This document shows, in pieces, positions 1-46,087 of a DNA stretch of 64,000 bases (within the stretch, counting starts at the first letter, position 1; the number at the start of each line of letters is the position of its first letter). A program made the translations under genes and the position numbers. Origin of the DNA: Leptotrichia wadei (GTDB taxonomy: Bacteria; Fusobacteriota; Fusobacteriia; Fusobacteriales; Leptotrichiaceae); assembly GCF_007990545.2 (NCBI RefSeq), contig NZ_AP019829.2:1-64000 (forward strand). Reading direction: 5' to 3'. Below the pieces are notes generated by a model. That model was given only the letters and a program-made list of their open reading frames with translations. It did no database searches and was not told the origin of the DNA.

Positions 1-121
1 ATGTATAAAATCCTATATAAAATTTAAAACTTATAAGATTTTGTTATTTTGTTGAATAGGTTATTTTAAAAATATAAGAAATTGATTTTTATGTAGTACT
101 TTTTTTTAAATAATATTTCAG

Positions 122-456
122 TTATCCACATTCCTATAATAACTAATATAATATATATATTTATATATATTATTATTATGCACTGTGGAAATGTGGGAAT
201 ATTGATGAATAAAGGGTTTGCTAGAGAATAACTTGTGGAAAACTTTTGTTGATTTTGTGGAAAACTTTTTTCAACAATATTATCCACACACTTATCAACA
301 TCAAATGTGGAAAACTAAATTAAATGTGGAAAAGCTGTGGAAAATCCCTAAATATAAGGATATAAATTTTTGTGGAAAAGTAAAAAAAAAATAACATAAC
401 TATTGTAAATATCAGATTAATAGATATTTTTTTCATGTGGAAAAGTATGTGGAAAA
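122..456. other. oriC: oriC upstream lobe: DnaA-box cluster
   Basis: About a dozen DnaA-box-like 9-mers occur here. TTATCCACA starts at 122 and 280, TTATCAACA at 292, and the complementary form TGTGGAAAA at 234, 256, 306, 325, 336, 371, 436 and 448; TGTGGAAAT at 184 is a near match. A nearly pure A/T stretch at about 147-180 is a candidate unwinding element. The cluster lies directly upstream of dnaA and has a twin after it. The boxes are seen directly; origin function follows from known bacterial origins and is inferred. No gene is seen in 1-570. Confidence 0.88.
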
Positions 457-471
457 CTTTTTCCCAAAATC

Positions 472-500
472 TTGATTATTTATTTTATATATGTTATAGT
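472..500 (+). promoter_or_regulatory. Candidate dnaA promoter
   Basis: TTGATT (472-477) and TATAGT (495-500) are separated by 17 bp and would start a transcript about 65 bases before dnaA. The -35 box lies just after the last DnaA boxes of the upstream cluster (436-456), so DnaA binding could repress its own gene, as in other bacteria. Motif match only. Confidence 0.45.
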
Positions 501-570
501 TAAATCAAATTAGAGGTTAAACGATAATGACTTTATTATAAATTGATAATATAAAGAAGGGAAATAGCAG

Positions 571-1920
571 ATGGATGTCGTGAAATTGTGGGAAAAAGTA
601 AAAAAAATTATGAAAAGGAAGATTAATGAAGGAGAGTTTGAACTTTTTTTTGAGAATGTAAAGGCAGTAAAAATAGAAGATAATGTATTTACACTTACTT
701 GTAATTCCAAATTAATAAAGGAAAGTGTGGAAAAGTATAAAAGCCAGATGGAAGAAATTGTGGAAATTGTGACAGATGAGGAAATTAAAATGAACTTTGA
801 AGTAAAAAAACAGGATGTAATGTTGTATAAATCTGAAACACACAGACTTCCAAAGGAAACAAGGGAAAAAGCTCCAATTCATACCGGATTAAATCCTAGA
901 CATCGGCTCGATAATTTTGTAGTTGGGGAAAACAGCAGGTTAGCATACAATGCATGTCTTGCAGTTGTGAAAAATCCGACTGTTTATAATCCGCTTTTCA
1001 TCTTTGGAAGTTCAGGGCTTGGAAAAACTCATCTTATGCAGGCTGTGGGAAATGCAATTTTAGAAAAGGATCCAACAAAACGAGTTTATTATTCCACTTC
1101 AGAAGAATTTGCAAATGAGTTTTTTAAAGTTTTAAATAGTGGACGGATTCAGCATTTTCGTGATACCTTTCGTGCTTTAGACGTGCTTCTTTTAGATGAT
1201 ATACAATTTTTTGAAAAGGTATTTGGACGTGGAGAAGGAACTGTGGAAGAGGAGTTTTTCCACACCTTTAATAAATTGCAGGAACTGGGAAAGCAAATAA
1301 TAATGATAAGCGACAAGTCGCCAAAAGAAATAAAGAATCTGTCAAAACGTTTAGAATCAAGATTTTTGTCAGGCTTAACTGTGGAAATACAAAGTCCAGG
1401 TTATGAAACTCGCATGATGATTTTAAAAAATATGGCTGAAGCACAAGGAATCGAGATAGATGACAGCATCCTAGAATATATTTCAGATTCTTTAAATACA
1501 AACGTAAGAGAGCTGGAAGGAACACTGACGAACCTTAATGCAAGGGCAAAACTTCTAAATGAACAAATAACATTGGAATTGGTACAGGAAATGCTTATGC
1601 ACAATGTAAAGCGGGAACAATCTAAGGTGACAGCCCAAAAAGTAATAGAAATGATTTCTACACATTATAACGTTAGCGTAGCCGATATGAAATCTAAAAA
1701 ACGTCAAAAAAAGATAGTTGAAACAAGACAAATCGCAATGTATCTCTTAAAAAATAACGATGATTTAGATTTAAGCCTAACTGCAATAGGTGGACTTTTT
1801 GGTGGAAAAGACCATAGCACAGTTATAAGCAGTATTAGAAAAATTGATAAAAAAACAAAAGAAGATATTGTTTTTAAGAAGGAAATTAATACATTAAATA
1901 AGAAGATATTCAAGAAGTAA
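571..1920 (+). CDS. dnaA: Chromosomal replication initiator protein DnaA
   Basis: DnaA binds the DnaA boxes and melts the origin as an ATP-bound oligomer. The 449-residue protein has the usual layout: N-terminal interaction domain (about 1-80), short linker, AAA+ domain with Walker A GSSGLGKTH (146-154) and Walker B VLLLDDIQFF (about 205-214), then the C-terminal helix-turn-helix box-binding domain with the signature around GGLFGGKDHSTV. A segment after Walker B (EKVFGRGEGTVEEE) looks a few residues longer than in common homologues. ATG 571 is preceded by an AAGAAGGG ribosome site. The gene is flanked on both sides by DnaA boxes, and further TGTGGAAAA matches occur inside it, for example near 726. 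Autoregulation is likely but inferred. Confidence 0.98.
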   Translation: MDVVKLWEKVKKIMKRKINEGEFELFFENVKAVKIEDNVFTLTCNSKLIKESVEKYKSQMEEIVEIVTDEEIKMNFEVKKQDVMLYKSETHRLPKETREKAPIHTGLNPRHRLDNFVVGENSRLAYNACLAVVKNPTVYNPLFIFGSSGLGKTHLMQAVGNAILEKDPTKRVYYSTSEEFANEFFKVLNSGRIQHFRDTFRALDVLLLDDIQFFEKVFGRGEGTVEEEFFHTFNKLQELGKQIIMISDKSPKEIKNLSKRLESRFLSGLTVEIQSPGYETRMMILKNMAEAQGIEIDDSILEYISDSLNTNVRELEGTLTNLNARAKLLNEQITLELVQEMLMHNVKREQSKVTAQKVIEMISTHYNVSVADMKSKKRQKKIVETRQIAMYLLKNNDDLDLSLTAIGGLFGGKDHSTVISSIRKIDKKTKEDIVFKKEINTLNKKIFKK

Positions 1921-1932
1921 TTGTGTAAAAGG

Positions 1933-2475
1933 TGTGGAAAACTTTGTGGAAAAGTCATGTAAAAAAATCTAAAATTTTCCACAGTGGAAAAAGTTTTCAA
2001 CAATGTTAATTTTTATAAATATTTATTATCAAGATAATTATATTATAATTAATTAAAAAAATAAATTTTAAGATTGTGGAAAAATAAAAATCAATTATCC
2101 ACAGTATATTGAAAAGTTTTCCACAAAAATTGTGGAAAAAAGATTGTTAAGATTATTGATTAATACTAGTATTGTGGAAAAGTAAAATTATATTGTGTAA
2201 AACTAAAATTTAGTTATCCACATTGTTAAAAAAAGTTATCCACATTTGTGTATAAACAGATTTAATTAATTTTTGATTAAATATAAGTGGTTGAAAAATT
2301 ATATAAATAAAAAATATAAAAAGTTTTCCACATAGATGAAAATTATATTCACAATATAATGTGGAAAAATGATTAGTCATAAAAGTTAGTAAAGATAAGG
2401 ATAAAATATAATTGTGGAAAAAATGTGGAAAAGATTGTGGAAAAAGTTTTCCACAAAAAAAATGAGTTTTCCACA
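1933..2475. other. oriC: oriC downstream lobe: DnaA-box cluster
   Basis: The 612-bp gap after dnaA holds no gene but about 19 DnaA-box-like 9-mers in both orientations. TGTGGAAAA starts at 1933, 1945, 2075, 2131, 2173, 2360, 2413, 2424 and 2436; TTTTCCACA at 1975, 2117, 2324, 2447 and 2467; TTATCCACA at 2095, 2214 and 2236; looser matches lie between. Several form back-to-back pairs, for example 2117/2131 and 2436/2447. Two box clusters around dnaA resemble the bipartite origins known in Bacillus subtilis and Helicobacter pylori. Which lobe unwinds cannot be told by eye. Confidence 0.85.
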
Positions 2476-2532
2476 GAAAAATTAACCATTAATTTTATTA
2501 ATGATTAAAAAAAAATAGAAGGAGAAAAGAAA

Positions 2533-2769
2533 ATGAAAAATATAGATAGTGAAATTGAAGAAATTACGATAAATACTGAGTTTATAAAATTGGATCAGCT
2601 TTTGAAATGGGCAAACTTTACAGGTTCTGGAGTGGAAGCAAAAATGTTTATTTTGAATGGAGAAGTGAAAGTAAATGATGCTGTGGAAACTAGACGTGGG
2701 AAAAAAATTTATGATGGGGATATTGTGGAGTTTGCTGGAGAAAAAGTTGTTGTAAGGGCAAGACATTAA
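2533..2769 (+). CDS. yaaA: S4-domain RNA-binding protein, YaaA family
   Basis: A 78-residue S4-like RNA-binding protein, the usual size for the small S4 protein encoded between dnaA/dnaN and recF in many low-GC bacteria. The S4 fold covers roughly residues 17-75, with the characteristic stretch IKLDQLLKWA followed by GEVKVNDAVETRRGKK and a C-terminal GDIVEF strand. ATG 2533 follows an AGAAGGAGAAAA ribosome site. Its RNA target is unknown; family members are thought to bind rRNA or ribosomal particles. Position next to the origin supports the family call. Confidence 0.88.
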   Translation: MKNIDSEIEEITINTEFIKLDQLLKWANFTGSGVEAKMFILNGEVKVNDAVETRRGKKIYDGDIVEFAGEKVVVRARH

Positions 2770-2841
2770 ATAGTTTGCTGATTTACTAAAAAGACAAATA
2801 GTTGTGAAAGTAGGCTGTGGAGAATATAAGGGGAGATTTTT

Positions 2842-4068
2842 ATGAAAAAAGGTATAGGAATTGGAGTAGAAGATTTTAGTGAAGTAATAAAAGAGAATTG
2901 TTATTATATTGACAAAACAAAATGGATAGGAGAAATTTTAGAGGATAAATCAAAAATAAAGCTATTCACACGTCCAAGAAGATTTGGGAAAACGCTTAAT
3001 ATGTCGATGTTAAAATATTTTTTTAATGTTGAAAATAAAGAAGAAAATAGAAAGTTATTTAATGGACTCGATGTTGAAAAGTCTGAATATATGTCTGAAC
3101 AGGGACAATATCCAGTGATTTTTATTTCATTGAAAAGCATAAAGGCGAAAACTTGGGAGGAAGCAATACAGGAAATTAGACTGCTAGTTTTAGAATTGTT
3201 TTCTGAATACAAGTATCTTTTGGAAGACTTGGATGAGTATGATTTGCCTAGATTTAAGAAGTATTTAATGGGCAATGCAGATTTTTCTGAATTAAAAAAT
3301 GCCTTGCTGTTTTTAACTAGAATATTATTTCAGAAGTATAAAAAAGAAGTTATCTTATTAATTGATGAATACGACAGTCCTTTAATTTCTGCTTATGAAC
3401 ATCATTATTATAGTGATGCCGTCGCATTTTTTAAAGTATTTTACGGAGAAGCACTGAAAACTAACCAATATTTAAAAATGGGAGTTATGACTGGAATTAT
3501 AAGGGTTATTAAGGCTGGAATATTTTCTGACTTGAACAATCTAAATGTTTATTCTATTTTAGAAAATGAATATTCCGAGTTTTTTGGTTTTAATCAGGGT
3601 GAGGTTGAAGAAACTCTTGAATATTTTGATGTAAAGTATGAACTTTTTGATGTTAAGGCTTGGTATGACGGTTATAAATTTGGTGATTCTGATGTGTATA
3701 ATCCTTGGAGTATTTTAAAATTTTTAAAATCTAAAAAAATTGGTTCTCACTGGATTGATACTTCTGGGAATTTCTTGATTAATCAGATTTTGAAAAATAC
3801 AGATTCTGAAATTATGGAAACTTTGGAAGCTCTTTTTAATGGAGAAACTGTTGAAGAAAATATCGGTGGTAATTCTGATTTATCTAGTTTATTGGGGCAA
3901 GAGGAAATTTGGGAACTTCTTTTATTTAGCGGATATTTGACTATTAATGAAAAAATTGGGGAAGACTATGAGGATGTGTATTCCTTGAGATTGCCTAATA
4001 GGGAGGTAAGGGAGTTTTTTAGGAAGAAATTTATTGATGTAAATTTTGGGGAAAGTAGTTACAGATAG
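2842..4068 (+). CDS. AAA-ATPase-like protein, C-terminally truncated (lacks nuclease domain)
   Basis: Belongs to the AAA-ATPase-like family (PF09820 type) that normally ends in a PD-(D/E)XK nuclease-like domain. The N-terminus has the nucleotide-binding loop TRPRRFGKTLNMSML (about 43-57) and a Walker-B-like LLIDEYDSP near 173. It parallels the 555-residue paralogue at 16407-18074 up to the REVREFFRKKF segment, then stops at 408 residues, so the roughly 150-residue nuclease domain is missing. recF begins 27 bp later, so no remnant of that domain is left. Family function is unresolved; mobile or defence roles have been suggested. It breaks the expected yaaA-recF adjacency, which suggests insertion with truncation. 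ATG 2842 follows AAGGGGAG. Confidence 0.85.
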   Translation: MKKGIGIGVEDFSEVIKENCYYIDKTKWIGEILEDKSKIKLFTRPRRFGKTLNMSMLKYFFNVENKEENRKLFNGLDVEKSEYMSEQGQYPVIFISLKSIKAKTWEEAIQEIRLLVLELFSEYKYLLEDLDEYDLPRFKKYLMGNADFSELKNALLFLTRILFQKYKKEVILLIDEYDSPLISAYEHHYYSDAVAFFKVFYGEALKTNQYLKMGVMTGIIRVIKAGIFSDLNNLNVYSILENEYSEFFGFNQGEVEETLEYFDVKYELFDVKAWYDGYKFGDSDVYNPWSILKFLKSKKIGSHWIDTSGNFLINQILKNTDSEIMETLEALFNGETVEENIGGNSDLSSLLGQEEIWELLLFSGYLTINEKIGEDYEDVYSLRLPNREVREFFRKKFIDVNFGESSYR

Positions 4069-4095
4069 TTATAGTGTGAAGGGAAAGAAATAGCG

Positions 4096-5187
4096 ATGTA
4101 TTTGGATCAGATTAGTTTTAATAACTTTCGTTGCCTTGTGGATGGGAAGTTGAAGTTTGACAGGTATTTTAATTTAATATATGGGAAAAATGGACAGGGG
4201 AAGACATCGCTTATTGAGGCTGTCCATTTTTTGGCTACGGGGAAAAGCTTTAGGACTAAGAAGGTTAAGGAGATTCGCAAGTATAATTTGAACAGGCTGA
4301 TTGTGTTTGGGAAGTATAGACATAAGGATTTGTCGGAAAATGCTATTGCTATTGATGTGAATGAGGATAAGAAGGACTTTTATATTGATAGGGAAAAAAA
4401 TAAATATATAAATTATGTGGGGCTACTTAACATTATTTCGTTTATTCCTGAAGATATTGAGCTGATTATTGGGAATCCTGGTGTTAGGAGAAACTTTTTT
4501 AATTATGAGATTTCGCAGGCAAAAAAGGAGTATTTACAGTCGATTGTGAATTTTGAGAAAATATTGAAGGTGCGGAACAAGCTTATAAAGGAAAAAAAGA
4601 CTGGCGAGGAAATTTATAAGATTTATAACGAAAAATTTATAGAGGAGGGGCTGAATATTGTTTTAAATCGGCAGGAGTTTATAAAAAAAATATCAATTTT
4701 ATTAAACTTGAATTATCGTAAGTTATTTGATGAAAATTCAGAATTAAAATTAAAATATGACTGTTTTCTTGGAGATGTGGAAAAGAAGACTAGGGAAGAA
4801 TTGAAGGAAAAATTTGAAATGTTATGTAAAAGGAAAAGCGAGAGGGAAAAGTTTCTTGGATACAGCCTGCTTGGCCCTCAAAAAGATGATTTTATCTTTG
4901 AGCTGAATGGGAAAAATGCAAAGGCATATTCTTCACAAGGGGAGAAAAAATCCATAATATTCTCGCTAAAAATTTCAGAAATTGATATTTTAATAAAGGA
5001 AAAAAAGGAGTATCCGATATTTATAATGGACGACATCGCTTCATATTTTGATGAAGTCAGAAAAAAAAGTATTTTAAGTTATTTTGCAAATAAAAAAATC
5101 CAGTGTTTTATAACTTCGACAGAGGATTTGGGAATAGAAGGGAAAAAATTTATTGTGGAAAAGGGAAAAGTTGTAGAAAAAAAATAA
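4096..5187 (+). CDS. recF: DNA replication and repair protein RecF
   Basis: RecF is an SMC/ABC-type ATPase that helps load RecA at gapped or stalled forks with RecO and RecR. The 363-residue sequence shows Walker A GKNGQGKTSLIEA (about 30-42), the ABC-type signature YSSQGEKKS (about 280), and Walker B PIFIMDDIASYFDE (about 312-325). Length is typical. ATG 4096 follows GAAGGGAAAG. The next gene starts 16 bp downstream, so the two are probably cotranscribed. Its place near dnaA is the ancestral arrangement, except that dnaN is absent and an ATPase gene lies upstream. Confidence 0.97.
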   Translation: MYLDQISFNNFRCLVDGKLKFDRYFNLIYGKNGQGKTSLIEAVHFLATGKSFRTKKVKEIRKYNLNRLIVFGKYRHKDLSENAIAIDVNEDKKDFYIDREKNKYINYVGLLNIISFIPEDIELIIGNPGVRRNFFNYEISQAKKEYLQSIVNFEKILKVRNKLIKEKKTGEEIYKIYNEKFIEEGLNIVLNRQEFIKKISILLNLNYRKLFDENSELKLKYDCFLGDVEKKTREELKEKFEMLCKRKSEREKFLGYSLLGPQKDDFIFELNGKNAKAYSSQGEKKSIIFSLKISEIDILIKEKKEYPIFIMDDIASYFDEVRKKSILSYFANKKIQCFITSTEDLGIEGKKFIVEKGKVVEKK

Positions 5188-5203
5188 ATAAAAGGGTTGA
5201 GAA

Positions 5204-6247
5204 ATGGAAGAAATTAAAGAATTAAAAAGTTTGGCATTAGAGGCGATTGAAAAGCAAAGTTCACTTTTAAAAAATGAGAAATATATTTTTTTGAAAATTA
5301 AGAAAAGTTGGAAGCAAATTGTAAATGGTCCAATTGGTGAAAAAACTTATCCGAAGGGACTATTTAATAGAAATTTGATTGTAGTTATTAATGATAATGT
5401 TATTTATCATACAACAATAATGTGTAAAGAAGTTATAAAGGAAAAAATAAATACTTTCTTGAATGGAGAATTTGTGGAAAATATAGAGTTTATGAAAATA
5501 AATTATAAAGTAAAACGTGATTTATTGGATGAACTTATTGAAAATGAGGAAAATAGAGGGACAATTCGAATTGGGGAGATTCCAAAAGGGAATGTTAGGA
5601 AAAAAGAAGTAAATATTGAAGCAGAAAATAAAATTACAGGAAGAATAGAGGATATTATACTTTCTTCAGAGGAAATTAAGGAAATTCATGAGAATATTGA
5701 TAAAATTGATGAAAAATATGAGGACATTGCTAGAAATTTGGAAAAAATTGCAATAAAATTGAAAAAAAGAGAAAAATATTTGAAAAGTATTGGATATATA
5801 GAGTGTGAGAATTGTAAAATTCTATTTTTGCAGGAAAGTAATGAAAAAATGTGTTTTGAGTGCAGAATGAATGAGAAAAATCAGAAATTTCAGAAAATAA
5901 CAGATTTAATAAGAAATAAACCGTATATTTCAGAAAAACAGGCAGTCCGAATGACAAATACCGATAAATCCACATATTATAAGGCACGGGATATTTTGGC
6001 ACAGCAGACTTACAATGATATGCTTTATTACTGCCTTGAAAAAAACAGGGAAATTTCTTTAAATGAGGATTATGAGTTTGAAATTCGGAGTGAGTCAAGG
6101 GAAGATGTGGAAAAATTTATAAAGAATTATGTGGATTATAAAGTCGGGAGTGATAATGAGGAGGTTTTTAAGATTGAGAGAAAGTGGGCTTTGAGAAGGT
6201 TAAGAAAGGATATGAAATTTAGGCTTGAGAATAGTAGGAGATATTGA
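5204..6247 (+). CDS. DUF721/DciA-like protein with C-terminal zinc ribbon
   Basis: Residues 1 to about 110 resemble DUF721, the family that includes DciA, the ancestral loader of the DnaB helicase: IFLKIKKSWKQIVNG, then a Leu/Val-rich core ending near NGEFVENIEFMKI. A charged middle region follows. From about residue 200 there is a CxxC...CxxC zinc-ribbon pattern (CENCKILF...MCFECRM). After it comes a helix-turn-helix-like stretch around EKQAVRMTNTDKSTYYKARD. At 347 residues it is about three times the size of minimal DciA proteins. It directly follows recF, a common place for DUF721 genes. The DUF721 call is fairly firm; a helicase-loading role is inferred. Confidence 0.75.
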   Translation: MEEIKELKSLALEAIEKQSSLLKNEKYIFLKIKKSWKQIVNGPIGEKTYPKGLFNRNLIVVINDNVIYHTTIMCKEVIKEKINTFLNGEFVENIEFMKINYKVKRDLLDELIENEENRGTIRIGEIPKGNVRKKEVNIEAENKITGRIEDIILSSEEIKEIHENIDKIDEKYEDIARNLEKIAIKLKKREKYLKSIGYIECENCKILFLQESNEKMCFECRMNEKNQKFQKITDLIRNKPYISEKQAVRMTNTDKSTYYKARDILAQQTYNDMLYYCLEKNREISLNEDYEFEIRSESREDVEKFIKNYVDYKVGSDNEEVFKIERKWALRRLRKDMKFRLENSRRY

Positions 6248-43585: not shown

Positions 43586-43607
43586 TTATCCACATTATTG
43601 TGGAAAA
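43586..43607. promoter_or_regulatory. Facing DnaA-box pair in the pheS-pheT region
   Basis: TTATCCACA (43586-43594) and TGTGGAAAA (43599-43607) face each other across four bases. Both are exact matches to the box forms used at the origin. The pair could also fold as a one-mismatch hairpin after the DUF1963 gene, but a T-run is missing. A DnaA binding site away from oriC is plausible. Confidence 0.55.
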
Positions 43608-43667: not shown

Positions 43668-43687
43668 GTTTGTCATACAAAAATAGA

Positions 43688-46087
43688 ATGCTAATTTCGT
43701 TAAACTGGTTAAAGCAGTATATAGATTTAGATGGAATAGAAATAAATGAAATGGAAAATGCCTTGACTATGATTGGTCAGGAAGTAGAAAAAATCGAGGT
43801 TTTAGGGGAGAATTTGGAAAATGTCGTAACGGCACAAATTATTGAAAAAGAAATGCACCCTGATTCTGACCACTTGACAATTTGTAAAGTTGATAATGGG
43901 AAAGAAATTTTGCAAATCGTGTGTGGAGCGCCTAATCATAAGGCTGGAGACAAAGTTGCGTTGGCACAAGTTGGGGCAAAATTAGCTCCAGATTTTGTTA
44001 TTAAAAAAGGTAAAATTAGAGGTGTAGAATCGAACGGAATGTTGTGTTCTGAAGAAGAATTAAATATTGGGAAAGATTCGGATGGAATTATGATTTTGCC
44101 TGAAGATACGCCTGTTGGAGTGCCTATGAAGGAGTATTTAGGAATTAACGATACAGTTTTTGAATTGGAAATCACTCCAAATCGTCCTGATTGTTTGTCA
44201 CACATTGGGATTGCAAGAGAATTAGGGGCCTATTACAATAAAGAGGTTAAATATCCAGGTTTTGTGATAAATTCAGAAAGTTCTGAAAAAACGGCTGATA
44301 ACATTTCAGTTGAAATTGAAGACAGTAATTTGGCGAAAAGATATGTGGCTAGAATAATTAAAAATGTTACAGTTAAAGAAAGTCCGAAATGGTTAAAAGA
44401 AAGAGTGGAATCTATTGGAATTAGAAGTATTAACAACATCGTAGATGCTTCAAATTTCATAATGATGGAATTGAATCAACCTAATCATACTTTTGATTTG
44501 GATAAAATTGAAGGTGGAAAAATTGTTGTGAGAGCGGGACATGAAAATGAAAAATTGGTTACGCTTGATGAGCAAGAAAGAAAATTGAATAGCGATGATA
44601 TCGTGATATCTGATGGTGTGAAAGCCGTTGCGCTTGGTGGAGTAATGGGTGGACAAAATTCAGAAATTACTGAAAATACAAAAAATATTTTGTTGGAAGT
44701 AGCAAATTTCAATTCACAAAATGTTAGAAAAACTTCAAGAAGATTGACATTATTTAGTGAATCTTCATACAGATTTGAAAGAAGAGTCGATGAAGAAAAT
44801 GCAATTAATGTGATAAATAGACTTGCAAACATCATTCAAGAAGTGGCAGGTGGAGAAATTTTAGAAGGAGTAGTTGACAATTATCCTGTTCCATATAAGA
44901 AAAAAACAGCTACATTAAACTTTGAGAGATTGAACCGTTTTGTTGGGAAAAATATTCCACGTGAAACAGTTATCGGAATCTTGACTAGACTTGAAATAGA
45001 GGTTGTAGATAATGGGGAAACATTGACATTGACTGCACCTACTTATCGTGATGACTTGGAAAATGAGCAAGATTACTTTGAAGAAGTTATTAGAATGTAT
45101 GGTTTTGATAATATTGAAAATATTTTACCAAAATTAGATATTAGTGAAAAACCAGTTATTGACACAACAAAACTTTCTACACAAGTAAAATTGATTGCGG
45201 CAAATGCTGGGCTTAAAGAAGTTATTAATTATAGTTTCGTACCAAAAGATGCGATGGAAAAAATTAAATACACAAGCGTTGAAAGAGAAAATTTAATTGA
45301 TTTATTGAGACCAATTACAGAAGATTTTGTAACATTGCGTCCAACATTGCTTTATAGCTTGTTAAAAAATGCTAAAGAAAATATGAATAGAAATGCTACA
45401 AATATTAGATTTTTTGAAGTTAGCAGAACTTTTGTGAAAGCGGAAGAATTGGCGAAGGAAGAAGTGAAATTGGGAATAATTCTGGCTGGAGAAAATAATA
45501 AGACATTGTGGAATCCAAAACCAGTTCCTTATGATTTTTATGACTTAAAAGGAATTGTGGAAGAAATTTTCACACAATTAAAATTCAATAATTATATGAT
45601 AAAACGTTCTGAACAAAGCCAATACCATCCAGGTCGTTCAGTTGACGTATTTGTTGGTCGTGAATTGATTGGAAGTTTTGGGGAAATTCATCCAGACGTA
45701 TTGGAAAACTTTGATTTAGGAAAAACATCAGTTTTAGTTGGAGAATTTAATATTGACTTGATTCAGAAATATATCGGTAAAAAAATTAAATATCAAGGAA
45801 TCGTGAAATATCCAGCAGTACCAAGAGATTTTGCGTTCGTTATGAGAGAAGATATTTTGGTTGGAGATGTTTTAAAAACTATTCAAAAAGTTGATAAAAA
45901 GATTGAAAAAGTGGAATTATTTGACATTTATCAAGGTGCAGGAGTGCTGCCAGGAATGAAGAGTGTGGCAATTAGTGTAATCTTGAGAGATAAAAACAAA
46001 ACACTTGAAGAAAAGGAAATTGTTGATATTTCAAATAAAATCGTGGCTAAGGTTGAAAAAGATTATGGAGCGGTTTTGAGAAAGTAG
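43688..46087 (+). CDS. pheT: Phenylalanine--tRNA ligase beta subunit
   Basis: The tRNA-binding and editing subunit of phenylalanyl-tRNA synthetase, 799 residues from ATG 43688 (MLISLNWLKQYIDL is the normal start). Domains in order: tRNA-binding OB fold (about 39-150; GAPNHKAGDKVALAQVGAKL), B3/B4 editing domain (about 205-370), B5, the catalytic-like core, and the C-terminal anticodon-binding domain (about 705-799; KYPAVPRDFAFVM). TTG 43670 is an in-frame alternative. The ribosome site is odd: the strong AAGGAGAG lies about 50 bases upstream, before a palindrome, and nothing good lies closer. Confidence 0.96.
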   Translation: MLISLNWLKQYIDLDGIEINEMENALTMIGQEVEKIEVLGENLENVVTAQIIEKEMHPDSDHLTICKVDNGKEILQIVCGAPNHKAGDKVALAQVGAKLAPDFVIKKGKIRGVESNGMLCSEEELNIGKDSDGIMILPEDTPVGVPMKEYLGINDTVFELEITPNRPDCLSHIGIARELGAYYNKEVKYPGFVINSESSEKTADNISVEIEDSNLAKRYVARIIKNVTVKESPKWLKERVESIGIRSINNIVDASNFIMMELNQPNHTFDLDKIEGGKIVVRAGHENEKLVTLDEQERKLNSDDIVISDGVKAVALGGVMGGQNSEITENTKNILLEVANFNSQNVRKTSRRLTLFSESSYRFERRVDEENAINVINRLANIIQEVAGGEILEGVVDNYPVPYKKKTATLNFERLNRFVGKNIPRETVIGILTRLEIEVVDNGETLTLTAPTYRDDLENEQDYFEEVIRMYGFDNIENILPKLDISEKPVIDTTKLSTQVKLIAANAGLKEVINYSFVPKDAMEKIKYTSVERENLIDLLRPITEDFVTLRPTLLYSLLKNAKENMNRNATNIRFFEVSRTFVKAEELAKEEVKLGIILAGENNKTLWNPKPVPYDFYDLKGIVEEIFTQLKFNNYMIKRSEQSQYHPGRSVDVFVGRELIGSFGEIHPDVLENFDLGKTSVLVGEFNIDLIQKYIGKKIKYQGIVKYPAVPRDFAFVMREDILVGDVLKTIQKVDKKIEKVELFDIYQGAGVLPGMKSVAISVILRDKNKTLEEKEIVDISNKIVAKVEKDYGAVLRK

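Follow-up and report, generated by a model that had tools for sequence, protein, structure and literature searches.

The DNA around dnaA in Leptotrichia wadei carries two dense clusters of DnaA boxes, one on each side of the gene, which raises the question of whether this locus is the chromosomal origin and, if so, in which of its two lobes the duplex would open. We analyzed the first 64,000 nucleotides of the 2,305,216-bp contig NZ_AP019829.2 (hereafter, the window). A preliminary description had placed about 12 boxes at 122–456 and about 19 at 1933–2475, flanking dnaA, and we reproduced their positions, orientations and counts. The upstream lobe, oriC1 (1–570), lies within the rpmH–dnaA intergenic region; its 10 exact TGTGGAWAA boxes comprise eight copies of TGTGGAAAA, all on the + strand, and two of TGTGGATAA, both on the − strand, rising to 12 under the looser TGT[G/T]GAWAA. 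The downstream lobe, oriC2 (1921–2532), fills the dnaA–yaaA gap, is specific to the Leptotrichia clade and holds 17 exact boxes, of which 14 are TGTGGAAAA (nine + and five −) and three TGTGGATAA (all −), with 18 under the looser pattern. Two further exact boxes fall within the dnaA coding region, at 726 (+) and 1256 (−).

The gene order is rnpA-rpmH / dnaA / yaaA-recF-dciA. The dnaA gene (571–1920, +) was recognized with TIGR00362 at 460 bits (cut-off 344) and is followed on the same strand by yaaA (2533–2769; S4 domain, TIGR02988), recF (4096–5187) and a gene for a DciA-domain protein (5204–6247; PF05258), a putative helicase operator, the role described for DciA (PMC5109545). The 347-aa product of the latter gene, directly 3′ of recF, has an N-terminal DciA domain and a long additional C-terminal part. 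A PF09820 predicted AAA-ATPase gene is located between yaaA and recF (2842–4068). The rpmH gene is located 697 bp upstream of dnaA, on the far side of the contig ends, with rnpA beyond it, so that the contig joins at the origin.

Box density was far above background, which, like the nucleotide skew described below, was taken from sampled stretches of the contig. TGTGGAAAA occurs 41 times in the window versus 1.88 expected. The E. coli consensus TTWTNCACA (PMC7561715) has 10 exact matches in the upstream and 20 in the downstream lobe, 30 E. coli-type boxes in all, whereas Markov shuffles give 0.2 and 0.4; with ≤1 mismatch allowed, the counts are 16 and 25 versus 3.2 and 5.2. The peak density at the origin is 15 boxes per 500 bp, compared with ≤3 elsewhere in the ~570 kb of the same genome that was sampled. 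Equal density in other intergenic regions, which the preliminary description had raised as possible counter-evidence, was not seen in this sample, where 106 of the 110 non-origin exact boxes lie within ORFs of at least 100 aa. Its claim of an unusually box-rich origin also stands: the 41 boxes at ≤1 mismatch to TTWTNCACA compare with 22 by the same criterion in Clostridioides difficile (PMC7561715) and with 19, the highest count among studied origins, in Streptomyces coelicolor (PMC4285127). The S. coelicolor origin is similarly rich in boxes, although it is continuous, is not split by dnaA and has G or C at box position 3. Among the relatives of L. wadei, up to 36 exact boxes were counted in both lobes combined (genome G014).

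A search for closely spaced TGTGGAAAA pairs elsewhere in the genome was set aside, nearly all sampled non-origin boxes falling in ORFs. Away from the origin, the ~570 kb hold a single intergenic box pair, the inverted TTATCCACA-TTAT-TGTGGAAAA (43586–43607). It precedes a pheT-like gene (43670–46087) and is possibly a DnaA-regulated promoter. No fixed 7-nt spacing pattern was found among the boxes. Helical phasing was weak in this genome, where 46 of 500 random layouts performed equally well, and suggestive in some other species (1–12 of 500).

A GC-skew inflection at this site, which the preliminary description had proposed looking for, was found. In samples covering about a quarter of the chromosome, the skew in the final 20 kb of the contig is for the most part ~−0.3 to −0.4, close to −0.35 as far as its end; past base 1 it is about +0.4, with values mostly between +0.2 and +0.45 from base 84 onward. 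This places the sign switch within ~2 kb of dnaA. The opposite switch lies near 1.13–1.25 Mb of the 2.305-Mb contig, half a chromosome away. Because the skew flips sign at dnaA, the dnaA region is very probably oriC; a box cluster above background adjoins dnaA, and clusters on both of its flanks correspond to a bipartite origin. An Rfam search of positions 1–6000 returned no match, and no report on a Leptotrichia oriC was found in the open-licence papers searched.

The preliminary description had also singled out TGTGGAAAA as the favored box form. It does outnumber TGTGGATAA, but it is not an odd form: it carries the other base that TTWTNCACA permits. At homologous boxes, A and T interchange at the seventh base between species, and since the consensus allows this interchange, the two forms are probably near-equivalent. 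In DnaA domain IV, the base-contact residues R399, R407, Q408, D433 and H434 are retained and two substitutions occur, P423 to T and T435 to S (E. coli DnaA numbering). A Leptotrichia-specific domain IV change behind the box expansion was considered and none was seen, as the nearest one-lobed genus also carries GGKDHSTV. The closest named relative found is Leptotrichia hongkongensis, with 91% DnaA identity.

The upstream lobe contains a compact candidate unwinding module. An R1-type box, TTATCCACA (122–130, −), faces from the left a candidate DNA unwinding element (DUE; 130–179), which is AT-only and, of all 50-bp stretches from −2000 to +3400, the least stable. Four DnaA-trios (3′-TAT-5′ on the + strand, 168–179) adjoin the tandem boxes TGTGGAAAT and TGTGGGAAT (184–200, +), which lie 60–62 bp from the R1-type box across the genus. 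The resulting block, TATTATTAT-NNNN-TGTGGAAATGTGGRAA (approximately 168–200), is the most highly conserved non-coding segment of the upstream lobe. To its right, a middle array (234–379) has exact + strand boxes at 234, 256, 306, 325, 336 and 371, and − strand boxes at 280 (exact) and at 268 and 292 (weaker). Two + strand boxes 12 bp apart (436–456) then adjoin a candidate dnaA promoter, TTGATT-N17-TATAGT with a TG element (472–500, +), in which AAAATCTTGATT is conserved. In a 13-genome alignment of this lobe, box columns were 0.90 conserved versus 0.64 for other columns, an excess that persists when G/C and A/T columns are analyzed separately, and box positions and orientations are retained across the genus.

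The described basal unwinding system comprises at least three trios (3′-NAN-5′) no more than 16 bp from a DnaA box (PMC8287927). The Leptotrichia module shares with it the tandem boxes, the 12-nt spacer, the trio number and the AT-rich DUE: its four trios are separated by 4 nt from the outer tandem box and by 12 nt from the inner one. It differs in using 3′-TAT-5′ rather than the commonest 3′-GAT-5′ trios, while elsewhere in the phylum families f4 and f5 have GAT trios. Weak trio matches arise easily in AT-rich DNA; under a strict definition (at least three consecutive [GT]AT), a run was found at a single place per genome, always upstream, in 14 of 14 two-lobed genomes, and beside no box of the downstream lobe in any of them. 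Trios, tandem boxes and DUE co-occur solely upstream, with the 4/12-nt spacing identical in all 14. The same geometry upstream of dnaA extends to genus g9 and, with GAT trios, to family f4; related trio–box arrangements are present in genus g10 and in family f5 (TAGTAGTAGAAGTAGTAGGGGC-TGTGGAAAT), and several other genera have the repeats without a box pair that passes the strict scan. Bipartite origins are defined as having the DUE in one sub-region (PMC4285127), and here, as judged from sequence alone, the candidate is in oriC1. The candidate melting site appears to lie in the upstream lobe (130–200), the mirror image of the familiar arrangement.

The layout of the boxes was next compared with related genomes, as the preliminary description had suggested; it is kept within the genus, including the terminal array of oriC2 (2413–2475; 2413, 2424 and 2436 on +, 2447 and 2467 on −), but the downstream lobe is absent from one-lobed relatives. 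Outside the clade, 0–12 boxes lie upstream of dnaA, and downstream there are none or at most 1–2 loose matches. The dnaA–yaaA gap measures 612–722 bp in the two-lobed genomes with a recognized yaaA (11 of 14) and 1–118 bp in one-lobed genomes where yaaA was recognized; in the remaining three two-lobed genomes the box array alone reaches at least 560 bp. All two-lobed genomes (13 of genus g1 and one of genus g3) form a single clade with 100/100 support in the DnaA tree. Since most other DnaA-bearing relatives have boxes upstream and essentially none downstream, the upstream lobe represents the ancestral origin. On this comparison, the downstream lobe was gained once, in Leptotrichia and one sister genus only, and is not an inherited half of an old bipartite origin. 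Its derivation as a duplicate of the upstream lobe was rejected, there being no similarity beyond the boxes.

We consider it probable that this oriC combines DnaA loading and melting in the upstream lobe, DciA-assisted helicase loading, autorepression of dnaA and a downstream array acting as a loop partner or a sink. DnaA would load onto the upstream array, and from the tandem boxes at 184–200 a DnaA oligomer would grow leftwards along the trio strand (168–179), the binding of DnaA to its boxes and trio-guided unwinding (PMC8287927) both being established. The oligomer would melt the AT-only stretch 130–179, which also faces the R1-type box at 122, and DciA, encoded 3′ of recF, may then assist helicase loading. 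The boxes at 436 and 448, beside the promoter-like sequence of dnaA, could mediate autorepression. The downstream array most likely binds many DnaA molecules beside the origin and would either loop to the upstream lobe or, as a DnaA sink, govern when initiation takes place.

The alternative that survives best, though we hold it to be the less plausible one, treats the downstream boxes as an adjacent DnaA-titration or transcription-control array, similar in function to datA or DARS and outside the origin proper. The array is indeed clade-specific, the relatives manage without it, and it contains no conserved unwinding module. However, the array preserves its box layout in detail and abuts the origin, which would ease cooperation with oriC1; datA and DARS are distant sites. 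This alternative overlaps the preferred explanation, which itself allows for a sink or a loop.

A conventional bipartite origin of the B. subtilis, H. pylori and C. difficile type, with melting downstream and a regulatory upstream lobe, is unlikely. Such an arrangement would fit the greater number of boxes in the downstream lobe, the tandem TTATCCACA pair there (2214 and 2236, −) that faces an AT-rich stretch (2260–2309), and the highly unstable stretch at 2007–2056, almost as unstable as the upstream element (−43.3 vs. −42.0 kcal/mol); moreover, mapped bipartite origins unwind in oriC2 (PMC5043019, PMC7561715). Yet none of the 14 genomes has a strict trio run beside downstream boxes, the tandem TTATCCACA pair is not retained in the group of G010, G012 and G014, and the one-lobed relatives must unwind upstream because they have no downstream lobe.

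The preliminary description is right on the likeness in layout to B. subtilis and H. pylori, gives box form and ancestry incompletely, and is probably wrong in the downstream melting lobe that it implies. With the oriC1-dnaA-oriC2 origins of B. subtilis and C. difficile, the Leptotrichia locus shares the two clusters flanking dnaA, the rnpA-rpmH-dnaA context, TTWTNCACA boxes and a DnaA-trio adjoining boxes; it differs in that dnaA is followed by yaaA rather than dnaN, and in that trio and unwinding are located in oriC2 in those species (PMC7561715, PMC5043019) but the module lies in oriC1 here. H. pylori and other Epsilonproteobacteria similarly have clusters up- and downstream of dnaA, but they unwind at oriC2 and use a TTCAC box core (PMC5043019), in contrast to the upstream module and E. 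coli-type boxes of Leptotrichia. The B. subtilis/H. pylori subtype is marked by a DUE and trios in oriC2; here no strict trio run was found downstream in the 14 genomes, and the conserved module is upstream in all of them.

A reading of the repeats as transcription terminators, or as the product of a simple repeat expansion, is highly improbable: back-to-back copies can form stems (e.g., TTTTCCACAATTTTTGTGGAAAA), and a scan found two such stems followed by T-runs, but most boxes are unpaired or tandem, they occupy both strands and both lobes, their A/T swaps at the seventh base preserve the box consensus, and they sit exactly at the skew switch. An origin elsewhere, with a merely coincidental skew switch near dnaA, is hardly credible given the ~2-kb distance, the opposite switch half a chromosome off and a box density that no other sampled stretch of the genome reached.

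The phylum-wide comparison revealed a second departure in replication initiation. Among 74 genomes of the phylum, each at least 95% complete, DnaA domain IV (PF08299) was present in 30 and absent from all 44 genomes of family f2. We assign f2 to Fusobacteriaceae on the strength of a Fusobacterium vincentii record that holds a protein with 49% identity. The DnaA of the window, used as a query, found no true DnaA in this family; matches to PF00308 and TIGR00362 were rejected as short DnaC/IstB-like proteins or sub-cut-off fragments, whereas positive controls were detected. In all eight f2 loci examined, the place of dnaA upstream of recF-gyrB-gyrA is occupied by a protein of 580–630 aa (alignment A1: L118:24–1862, L119, L120, L121, L122, L123, L124 and L126). 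Pfam RPA (PF10134, replication initiator protein A) matched five of the seven members aligned, one of them with a score of 29.0 bits where the cut-off is 27. The RPA profile hit 44 of 44 f2 genomes and none among the sampled genomes of families f1, f4 and f5. Family f3 has DnaA on the chromosome and an RPA gene on a second replicon, at base 13; the Haliovirga abyssi plasmid pHIC carries an RPA gene followed by parA and parB, and two Ilyobacter plasmids have RPA homologues near base 165. A search of solved structures for the RPA protein yielded no relative, just weak unrelated matches.

In the three f2 genomes tested (G043, G062 and G051), the 5′ end of the RPA gene coincides with a sign change in GC skew. 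DnaA boxes were looked for upstream of the gene and none were found; several genomes have ~30-bp repeats there (AATAATATT...TATACAT type), ~85–105 bp apart or at multiples of this distance, which are candidate iterons (L123:8936–10200, L122:8309–8700, L119:8376–8900, L121:2150–2598). The simplest reading is that a plasmid-type RPA initiator probably replaced DnaA throughout the free-living family Fusobacteriaceae, and no report of DnaA loss in this family was found in the open-licence papers searched. The 2.1-Mb record NZ_CP084075.1 (L147), titled Fusobacterium vincentii plasmid pSB055A, carries the RPA initiator gene and is evidently a chromosome.

Overall, the balance of these results leans towards a mirror-image bipartite origin in Leptotrichia, whose ~600-bp downstream array would have been gained once and kept for changed timing, as part of a phylum-wide rewiring of initiation that includes the swap of DnaA for a plasmid-type RPA protein at the same chromosomal place in a sister family. 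In the cited bipartite origins with mapped unwinding, melting is in the downstream lobe, whereas the Leptotrichia candidate is upstream. The reason for split origins has been stated as unknown (PMC4285127); close genera with and without the second lobe, with comparable DnaA and upstream lobe, make the function of that lobe directly testable. The RPA-for-DnaA result possibly outweighs the Leptotrichia origin in importance: if true, an entire free-living family would do without DnaA, which bears on the indispensability of DnaA in free-living heterotrophs.
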